Origin: Helicobacteraceae bacterium
GTDB lineage: Bacteria > Campylobacterota > Campylobacteria > Campylobacterales > Sulfurimonadaceae
Reading direction: 5' to 3'
DNA: 36,894 nt
Assembly (NCBI GenBank): GCA_013138865.1
Contig: WTBY01000044.1
Coordinates: forward strand, 1-36,894
Shown: one piece after another, positions 19,873 through 21,918 of the stretch
How the letters are laid out: every line of letters starts with the position of its first letter
Numbering within the stretch: position 1 is the stretch's first letter
Made by a program: the position numbers and the translations under genes
The notes under the pieces: model-generated
What the model was told of the DNA's origin: nothing
The model's input: only the letters and a program-made list of their open reading frames with translations
Database searches by the model: none

Positions 19873-19926
19873 AAAAGATTTAAGAATGCAAAAATATTGC
19901 ATTTTGCAATAAAATGGAGAGTAGAA

Positions 19927-20706
19927 ATGAAAGTTACTAAGTTAAAACCACCACATGGCTGGGTTGGTGGAAAATCACGTTTAGCAAAAGAGATTGTTAA
20001 TTTAATACCTGAAGATCATAGGTTATATGTTGAAGTATTTGGCGGAGCTATGAATATACTCTATGCAAAAGAGAAGCAGAGTGTAGAAGTTGTAAATGAC
20101 ATCAATTCAGAACTTATAAACCTACACCGCTCTATCAGAAATAATCCTCAATCACTAACAATGTACCTTAACAATATGCTTATATCTCGTGAGCTATTTG
20201 ATGATATTAAGAACCAACGACTACGATACACAAACAACATACAAAGAGCAGCATACTATTACTATCAACTTACTCAGAGCTTTGGAAGTAAAGGTGAGAA
20301 CTTTGCTATGAATGCAAAGAGTAGAAAACCTAAAAATATCTATAGAGAGTTCACTAAGTGGTCCGAACGCTTAAAAGGTGTAACGATCGAGAATATGAGC
20401 TTTGAGAAACTACTTAAAACTTACGATAAAGAGGATGCTTTTTTCTATTGCGATCCACCATACGTTGAGACTGAGAGTTACTATAAAAATACAGGTGGAT
20501 TTGGAGTTAAAGAGCATGAACTCTTAGCAGCTACTTTGAAACAGGTGAAAGGTAAGTTTTTACTTTCATATAATGATCATAAGCTGGTAAGAGAGCTGTA
20601 CAAAGATTTTAAGATTGTTCAGAGTGGCGAGATTGAATATACGCTTGGTAAAGGTGTGAGTGGTAAGTCTAAAAAGGTTCGAGAGATCTTTGTTATGAAT
20701 TATTAG
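19927..20706 (+). CDS. DNA adenine-N6 methyltransferase, D12 class (phage, first of two)
   Basis: 259 aa from the ATG at 19927 (GGAGA six bases upstream). Motifs: WVGGKSRLAKEIVNLIP (motif X, start), VEVFGGAMNIL (AdoMet-binding motif I, about residue 38), VVNDINSELINLHR, and the catalytic motif IV YCDPPYVETESYY (about 174). C-terminal FLLSYNDH matches motif VI. D12/Dam-type enzymes methylate adenine in short sites. In phages this usually protects DNA from host restriction. It follows the lysis genes and ends at a strong terminator. The recognition site cannot be read from sequence. Confidence 0.9.
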   Translation: MKVTKLKPPHGWVGGKSRLAKEIVNLIPEDHRLYVEVFGGAMNILYAKEKQSVEVVNDINSELINLHRSIRNNPQSLTMYLNNMLISRELFDDIKNQRLRYTNNIQRAAYYYYQLTQSFGSKGENFAMNAKSRKPKNIYREFTKWSERLKGVTIENMSFEKLLKTYDKEDAFFYCDPPYVETESYYKNTGGFGVKEHELLAATLKQVKGKFLLSYNDHKLVRELYKDFKIVQSGEIEYTLGKGVSGKSKKVREIFVMNY

Positions 20707-20714
20707 GATTTGAT

Positions 20715-20759
20715 AAAAGGTACTGCATCGCTATCTTTAACGATAGAGTACCTTTTTTT
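20715..20759. terminator. Bidirectional rho-independent terminator between the two convergent methylases
   Basis: AAAGGTACT (20716-20724) pairs with AGTACCTTT (20747-20755), with an inner CTATC/GATAG pairing. The plus-strand arm is followed by a run of seven T (20753-20759). On the minus strand the hairpin is followed by CCTTTTATC, so it may end both transcripts. The loop side contains an ATCG-N10-CGAT dyad. Confidence 0.8.
20727..20744. promoter_or_regulatory. Operator-like dyad 1 (ATCG-N10-CGAT)
   Basis: ATCGCTATCTTTAACGAT. Half-sites ATCGCTAT and (reverse) ATCGTTAA. It lies inside the terminator hairpin. Member of a four-copy family around the second methylase. Confidence 0.5.
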
Positions 20760-20772
20760 AAAAAGCTAAAGC

Positions 20773-20790
20773 ATCATCATTTTTGACGAT
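20773..20790. promoter_or_regulatory. Operator-like dyad 2 (ATCA-N10-CGAT)
   Basis: ATCATCATTTTTGACGAT, 19 bases past the 3' end (stop at 20809) of the minus-strand methylase. Half-sites ATCATCAT and (reverse) ATCGTCAA. Confidence 0.5.
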
Positions 20791-20808
20791 GGCAGAAGCT
20801 GCTAAAAA

Positions 20809-21519
20809 TTAAAAGTGATTTGACAACTCTAACCCAAAATTTTCACTTATATTTGCTAGTAAAAAATTACGTTCATCACTTGGAAGCTTATCAAGGTTAT
20901 TAATCCATCTTTGAGACTTTCTTTTTATACGTTCTCGTTCTCTAAAGTCAGCACCTATATAGCTATAGTCATGTTTAATATGTTCACCTGGGATAAAGTT
21001 ACACCAGAGAGCTTCTGTTCTAACTCCTTTGCGTGTCATTGAGTTAAAAGTAAACAGGTGCCATTTATCTTTATTGAGTAGTTTTGTATACAGTTCTGAC
21101 TCATAACCACTAATCATAACGAAACAGTTTAAACTATCAAGTAGTTCTAATAGCTCAATGTGATCGTTATTATCATACTCATGTTTATATAAAGCTTTTT
21201 TATTTTTTCTAGTTTCAAACACATAAGGTGGGTCTGCATATACAAGCTCATAGCCTTTGAAGTCATAATTAGTTAAAAAGTTAATGCAGTTGTCATTTAT
21301 AAATTCATGTGCACCATCATCATTTTTAGAGATAGAGTACTTAAACTTTTTTAGTTCTGCAGTATCGATCTCAATAGCGATGTTACATGACGCTTTTTTC
21401 TTTTTTAAAAGAATACTACCACCACCTAAGTGAGTCTCAATATATACTCTATGCTTTGGCATTTTATTAATGATTTGTTGATGCACACCACTTGCACCTT
21501 TTCCACCGTTATAATTCAT
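20809..21519 (-). CDS. DNA adenine-N6 methyltransferase, D12 class (phage, second of two)
   Basis: 236 aa. N-terminal NYNGGKGASGVHQQIINKMP, YIETHLGGGSILL (AdoMet motif I), acidic IAIEID (about 47), catalytic motif IV VYADPPYV (about 93-100) and CFVMISGYESELY. Belongs to the compact phage group of D12 methylases and is clearly different from the other methylase in this region. The C-terminal part is basic (DFRERERIKRKSQRW). No ribosome binding site precedes the ATG, but a TATACT -10 lies only six bases upstream, so the mRNA may be leaderless. Two operator-like dyads overlap and flank this promoter. It converges on the first methylase. Confidence 0.88.
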   Translation of the reverse strand: MNYNGGKGASGVHQQIINKMPKHRVYIETHLGGGSILLKKKKASCNIAIEIDTAELKKFKYSISKNDDGAHEFINDNCINFLTNYDFKGYELVYADPPYVFETRKNKKALYKHEYDNNDHIELLELLDSLNCFVMISGYESELYTKLLNKDKWHLFTFNSMTRKGVRTEALWCNFIPGEHIKHDYSYIGADFRERERIKRKSQRWINNLDKLPSDERNFLLANISENFGLELSNHF

Positions 21520-21525
21520 AAAAAT

Positions 21526-21531
21526 AGTATA
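21526..21531 (-). promoter_or_regulatory. -10 element of the second methylase promoter (possibly leaderless)
   Basis: TATACT on the minus strand, six bases before the ATG at 21519. With usual spacing transcription would begin at or next to the start codon. The -35 to -10 spacer region is covered by dyad 3. Confidence 0.5.
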
Positions 21532-21537
21532 TCAAAT

Positions 21538-21555
21538 ATCGTCATAAAAAGCGAT
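21538..21555. promoter_or_regulatory. Operator-like dyad 3 (ATCG-N10-CGAT)
   Basis: ATCGTCATAAAAAGCGAT, just upstream of the -10 of the second methylase, where a bound protein would block or contact RNA polymerase. Confidence 0.55.
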
Positions 21556-21567
21556 GCTTCATGGAAC

Positions 21568-21585
21568 ATCGTTATAAATGATGAT
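21568..21585. promoter_or_regulatory. Operator-like dyad 4 (ATCG-N10-TGAT)
   Basis: ATCGTTATAAATGATGAT, exactly 30 bases (about three helical turns) from dyad 3, placing both on the same DNA face upstream of the second methylase. Confidence 0.55.
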
Positions 21586-21600: not shown

Positions 21601-21627
21601 TTTGAATTTGAAAATGAAATGTCAGTA
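21601..21627 (+). repeat. End-repeat A (transposase-binding-like)
   Basis: Copy A of a motif with core GAATTTGAAAATGAAATGTC. Copy B begins exactly 50 bases further in the same orientation and an inverted copy C follows. Two direct and one inverted copies of a site in the 20-odd-base range near a Mu-like prophage border match the layout of MuA R-end sites. Confidence 0.6.
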
Positions 21628-21650
21628 AGGTAGTAAGTAAATATAACTTA

Positions 21651-21677
21651 TTTGAATTTGAATATGAAATGCAAGTA
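21651..21677 (+). repeat. End-repeat B (transposase-binding-like)
   Basis: Core GAATTTGAATATGAAATGCA. Differs from copy A at only a few positions (ATATG for AAATG, GCAAGTA for GTCAGTA). Confidence 0.6.
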
Positions 21678-21707: not shown

Positions 21708-21728
21708 TACTGACATTTCATATTCAAA
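21708..21728 (-). repeat. End-repeat C, inverted copy
   Basis: On the minus strand TTTGAATATGAAATGTCAGT, the same as A/B but lacking one TTTGAA unit. Its flank (minus-strand CAAGTTA) resembles the flank of copy B (ACTTA). Confidence 0.6.
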
Positions 21729-21918
21729 TAACTTGCGTTTTAAATTTGGTTTTACACATAAATACAACAAGTTTATACCATCAGAAATAAGGAAAATTGA
21801 CAAGTCAATTGGTCTGTTTTGAAAGTGCTATACAAAAAAAGTTATATGTGAAAAATATTTTAGCTACCGTAAGTTTTGAATCTCTTGAAATGTCGTGTTT
21901 TTGGGGGTTTAAATTGAG

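Follow-up and report, generated by a model that had tools for sequence, protein, structure and literature searches.

Gap-4 DNA dyads linked to a family of short D12-class phage methyltransferases, probable sites for the methyltransferase itself

The locus and its dyads

Within a 36,894-nucleotide stretch of a Helicobacteraceae contig (WTBY01000044.1, the window), four 18-bp dyads of the form ATCR-N10-YGAT lie on both sides of a gene for a short D12-class DNA methyltransferase, MT2 (Table 1). A sequence-only reading of the window had taken them for the operator set of a phage regulator, with a repressor, a Com-like protein or an autoregulating methylase as candidates. All four dyads were recovered as exact matches where that reading had placed them, two upstream of the minus-strand gene, those at 21538 and 21568 showing the 30-bp periodicity that it had described, and two past the 3′ end, of which the one at 20727 does lie within a GGTACT..AGTACC terminator hairpin with convergent genes on either side.

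Table 1 Coordinates of features at the MT2 locus in the window.
Feature	Positions	Strand	Evidence
MT1, second, larger D12 methyltransferase	19897..20706	+	Pfam E=2.2e-33
Hairpin/terminator between the convergent methylase genes, holding dyad 1	20719..20752	.	fold z -6.3/-7.8 (two strands)
Dyad 1, inside the terminator hairpin between convergent genes	20727..20744	+	exact match; A at +6 on both sides
Dyad 2, interval from MT2 stop codon to terminator	20773..20790	+	exact match; A at +6 on both sides
MT2, D12-class (Dam-like) amino DNA methyltransferase, 236 aa	20809..21519	-	Pfam MethyltransfD12 E=4.5e-7
Weaker dyad within the MT2 coding sequence	21316..21333	.	A at +6 on both sides
Dyad in the MT2 coding sequence, codons for IAIEID	21364..21381	.	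A at +6 on both sides
Putative -10 GATATT below dyad 3	21535..21540	-	inferred by register from five phages; not reported by consensus scan
Dyad 3, upstream of the MT2 ATG	21538..21555	-	exact match; A at +6 on both sides
Dyad 4, 30 bp upstream of dyad 3	21568..21585	-	exact match; A at +6 on both sides

The four window dyads are not a product of chance. The pattern ATCRN10YGAT occurs nine times in the window against 1.25 expected, a count reached in 0 of 100 shuffles, and the general half-site rule places six dyads within about 860–900 bp, two of them inside the MT2 coding sequence, with a maximum of two per 900 bp in 100 Markov simulations under the same rule. Of the two coding dyads, that at 21364 may be a by-product of the amino-acid motif IGIDID. 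Across the host genome (3.03 Mb) the motif gave 67 matches vs 67 for a reversed control pattern, which is chance level apart from the MT2 cluster, and the sole strict match elsewhere falls inside an ORF reading like peptidyl-tRNA hydrolase; the motif therefore belongs to the MT2 locus.

MT1 and MT2 converge at the right edge of the left part of the window, which has gp36 and DUF1804 matches and looks like a Mu-like prophage. No dyads were found at the 5′ end of MT1 itself. The 27-bp repeats at 21601-21677 (TTTGAATTTGAAWATGAAATG), situated 16 bp away from dyad 4, have an inverted copy at 21708-21729 and resemble binding sites for the transposase at the right end of the Mu-like prophage. A mobile cassette with inverted ends around MT2 was considered and rejected, as the inverted arrangement is not kept in orthologues, and a likeness of the intergenic elements to MT2 coding DNA was traced to the dyads in the IGIDID codons and is possibly coincidental.

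Dyads across MT2 homologues

Relatives of MT2 were gathered from viral contigs, and 55 dereplicated loci were compared using the cross-phage dyad architecture NNNGYYA-N4-TRRCNNN. The half-site form of the earlier reading (ATCR...YGAT) holds in the window, although it is better written as ATCGYYA with a fixed N4 centre and an outward reach to an A or C at position +6. The density of gap-4 dyads per 10 kb was 58 over the 100 bp preceding MT2, 18 at 100–300 bp upstream, 15 in the first 100 bp downstream and 1.3–2.4 in distant flanks, so that density within 100 bp upstream is ~45 times that of the distant upstream flanks; related loci are among those counted, but the strongest tests, namely the gap specificity, the independent validation loci and the negative results for P2 and 186, do not rest on such counts. 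Gaps of 2, 3, 5, 6 and 8 and a direct-repeat control showed no rise near MT2 in the 55 loci. Several of the 55 loci have no recognisable dyad. The earlier reading had named absence of the motif from orthologous methylase loci as the result that would speak against it, and MT2 homologues in unrelated phages do carry dyads.

A blind search of 2.9 million viral contigs for two dyads 6–24 bp apart returned three contigs, in two of which MT2 adjoins the array. One of these (L049) was already known, and the other (L133), not used in defining the motif, encodes, immediately beside its array, an MT2 that shares about 46% identity with the query; in the third, an 11-kb fragment (L135), MT2 was not found. 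Phages P2 and 186, both without MT2, have no such dyads, which are present in the MT2-bearing relatives 3LV2017, SW5 and SEN5.

MT2 is the only family found in 54 of the 55 dereplicated loci, the next being the P2 replication protein gpA with 37, in a shared-neighbour test that a fast-evolving small regulator could escape. The outer three bases of the half-site (the prefix) follow the MT2 tree across phage types, with ATC in the window clade plus six further loci (L051, L063, L065, L071, L091 and L093), and with ATA/GTA/ACA and ACC/ACT in P2-like MT2 clades, a set in which the MT2 phylogeny is partly confounded with phage phylogeny. Some other phage- or host-encoded regulator could bind the dyads, leaving MT2 merely as the regulated gene, and such a regulator would fit both the position of dyads in the MT2 promoter, as any repressor would, and their presence near other genes. 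This explanation is unlikely, given that no other gene family is common to the loci, that the half-sites track the MT2 tree and that MT2 is present in two of the three contigs from the blind search; in addition, the hosts span 30–63% GC, a difference in base composition that makes a single host factor improbable. No Com-like or repressor partner, as the earlier reading had envisaged, emerged as a shared neighbour of the loci. Among its candidates the autoregulating methylase appears to fit best, since MT2 is the only near-universal family and half-site identity tracks its tree.

In four loci (L034, L035, L129 and L130) dyads are found well away from MT2, indicating that they are not solely MT2 operators. 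Their spread could instead reflect a proliferating repeat, REP- or RPE-like, that accumulates between genes and in permissive linkers, MT2 being its helper or a passenger, and arrays of at least eight dyads with a 26–28 bp period, a dyad array inside the linker of a predicted lipoprotein ORF with an SH3-like domain (L129 5482-5552) and near-duplicate blocks of ~230 bp in phage G228 are in keeping with such an element. However, only gap 4 is tolerated, the half-sites are independent and the register with the promoter is fixed, which argues for selection on the sites rather than copying alone and renders a repeat element improbable.

Several other repeats were observed at these loci. KTCACA boxes recur every 24 bp in intergenic DNA of phage G228, and in several genomes the codons for the C-terminal linker of a cytosine methyltransferase contain them as TGTGAC or TCACA (loci concerned: L030 3830-3920 and 4750-4900; L034 2290-2480; L035 1420-1540; L043, L045); the boxes are perhaps an analogous site set for the cytosine methyltransferase. 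The GACACACTCTTTRTGCC pattern of L030 and the KTCACA blocks were set aside as a separate repeat. A terminator-like inverted repeat, GTCTCCGACATC-GTCGGAGAC, stands beside dyad clusters in two otherwise different phages (L031 4692-4720, L034 2230-2260). Among MT2-bearing P2-like loci, 7 of 27 have a dyad on the 3′ side of the P2-type origin nick motif, at 48, 64 or 78 nt, with 0.56 expected (L076, L101, L104, L106, L107, L109 and L120; also L138, L139 and L140, in the gpA gene), and this dyad is absent in P2 and 186. In phage 186 (L137 20897-21147), predicted arm-type sites for Int (YAYCGCCAYTY) look like one half-site of the MT2 dyad, probably by coincidence; these sites (CACCGCCATTC and similar) share the half-site likeness but are not gap-4 dyads, and were rejected as such.

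DNA sites or RNA hairpins

With one window dyad inside a terminator hairpin, and three of the four pairing fully on one strand if G.U is allowed, the dyads might act as RNA hairpins in termination or translational control. Over 82 distinct dyads, however, the two halves vary independently of each other at YY (0.50 vs 0.48 and 0.56 vs 0.55 expected), so compensatory base-pair changes were not found, there is no clear strand bias (G.U 45 vs A.C 32), and the large array of L129 comes after a terminator and does not form one. An RNA role is accordingly very improbable, and the strand-specific, G.U-only look of the window dyads was discounted on the independence of the halves across the same 82 dyads. 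This independence favours a DNA-binding protein that is symmetric and tolerates either pyrimidine at YY.

Promoter register

Within 110 bp of MT2, five phages (L050, L051, L065, L091 and L093) have as their best sigma-70 promoter TTGACA-17-GATAAT (TAGACA in L093), and in all five a dyad begins exactly 8 nt downstream of the first base of the -35, such that the terminal GAT of the dyad forms the first half of the -10. A specific site at a fixed register in the gene's own promoter, as expected of an autoregulating methyltransferase, is thus present in these five phages, with the register in the window (Table 1) inferred from them. The consensus scan gave no recognisable -35 for the window MT2 promoter; Campylobacterota sigma-70 promoters often have no conserved -35. 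A promoter role fits this register in several phages, but it does not extend to the two nearest orthologues (L030 and L031), where MT2 stands behind other genes and every dyad is either within MT2 or 3′ of it, the intergenic ones being between MT2 and MT1. A promoter role is therefore not universal. The broader proposal of an operator-like set, acting at the DNA level and tied to a phage methylase, is supported by its recurrence at MT2 homologues in unrelated phages and by the fixed register in several of them.

The MT2 protein

MT2 scores 30.3 bits against PF02086 (gathering threshold 22), which places it in the D12 class, and its DPPY motif is invariant across an alignment of 24 MT2 homologues. 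Against the Dam family model TIGR00571 it reaches 31.5 bits, well below the curated cut-off of 114.85. In Dam-type enzymes the TRD takes up about 90 residues, from motif I/ExD to DPPY; MT2 has ~45 residues in the interval from its ExD motif to DPPY, not enough to accommodate such a domain. The alignment also revealed a conserved basic helix at the C-terminus, FRERERIKRKxxRW, written FRERERIKRK/DRxRIKRK across homologues. An AF2 model (pLDDT 83) has a Rossmann methyltransferase fold with C-terminal helices, and its best Foldseek match is E. coli Dam (TM 0.49). MT2 therefore resembles the Dam family (TIGR00571/PF02086) in catalytic motif and fold, and differs from it in having no TRD insert and extra conserved C-terminal basic helices. 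Without a TRD, MT2 would need other means of target choice, which binding to the dyads would supply.

Sequence flanking the dyads

The site extends beyond the 18-bp dyad core to about 30 bp. Of 140 flanks in the non-P2 loci, 129 have A or C at position +6 counted outward, as do 18/20 flanks of the independent loci L133 and L135 together and 97/108 flanks of P2-like loci, and the six window dyads have A there in 12/12 flanks. This preference was not built in, as the dyad finder used positions 1–18 only. Both A and C bear a major-groove amino group of the kind methylated by the enzyme class of MT2, which suggests that +6 is the base that MT2 methylates or contacts.

The +6 A/C is frequently part of a 6-bp palindrome, the sequence of which varies. 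Perfect 6-bp palindromes at offset 0–5 were present in 48.6% of non-P2 flanks, vs 6.8% at random sites and 11.6% in shuffled flanks, with 22 different palindromes represented; the proportion was 55% in L133 and L135 together and 55% in P2-like loci, in which TGGCCA, CTGCAG and GGTACC recur, partly by descent. In one locus (L129 1522-1860), about a dozen dyads at 26–28 bp spacing have spacers with different 6-bp palindromes, giving the look of a natural polylinker; this array has a terminator on one side and, on the other, a small HTH gene close to an integrase.

Binding by MT2 does not account for the flanking palindromes. With the +6 base often set in a different restriction-type palindromic hexamer at each site, the array could be a bank of methylation-sensitive switches. 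The TRD-less MT2 would then find its target via the separate dyad and methylate the +6 A/C, and the switches would sense host modification marks on phage DNA and set methylase expression, a scenario that we consider quite improbable as a whole.

A model for MT2 and its dyads

The dyads are best explained as DNA sites for a symmetric MT2-linked protein, most likely MT2 itself acting as its own regulator, a reading to which we assign a probability of roughly 0.55. A pair of MT2 molecules would span the fixed 4-bp centre, each recognising one half-site (ATCGYYA in the window clade; ATA/GTA/ACA-GYYA or ACC/ACT-GYYA in others), making the 18-bp dyad the core site of MT2. Where a dyad sits between -35 and -10, its occupancy would silence transcription of MT2, a negative autoregulation; the additional dyads 5′ and 3′ of MT2, within it and at other phage positions would serve as further sites of binding or methylation, and the exocyclic amino group of the +6 A/C would be methylated or contacted by MT2. 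The dyads, their fixed gap, their association with MT2, the half-sites particular to each clade, the promoter register, the independence of the halves and the A/C at +6 were all observed; MT2 as the binder, repression by binding and +6 methylation are what we infer.

Autoregulation by a methyltransferase has precedents in the m5C enzymes of the M.SsoII, M.EcoRII and M.MspI type, which bind their operators through an N-terminal extension. As in those systems, the MT2 gene has a palindromic site in its own promoter; unlike them, MT2 is a short D12 amino-methylase without an N-terminal extension, and its system comprises many dispersed sites with an A/C at fixed distance from the dyad. The C-protein boxes of type II restriction-modification (R-M) systems, which are tandem dyads upstream of an R-M gene, recall the tandem dyads upstream of MT2, whereas MT2 dyads lie on both sides of the gene and elsewhere; no small controller family common to all MT2 loci was found, as a C-protein-controlled R-M operon would have, and no endonuclease partner was identified at them. 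The stoperators of mycobacteriophage L5, dispersed and asymmetric sites bound by the immunity repressor, are likewise many related sites spread over the intergenic regions of one phage, but the MT2 dyads differ from them in being gap-4 symmetric and linked to a methylase. In the literature searched, coverage of which was partial, we found no published description of the dyad/MT2 system.

These results connect a defined site of ~30 bp, with clade-specific half-sites, to phage orphan methyltransferases that form a large family of uncharacterised function. The varied flanking palindromes are a strong regularity of that site and its conserved +6 A/C predicts the modified base, and having a defined site makes the specificity and regulation of these methyltransferases directly testable.
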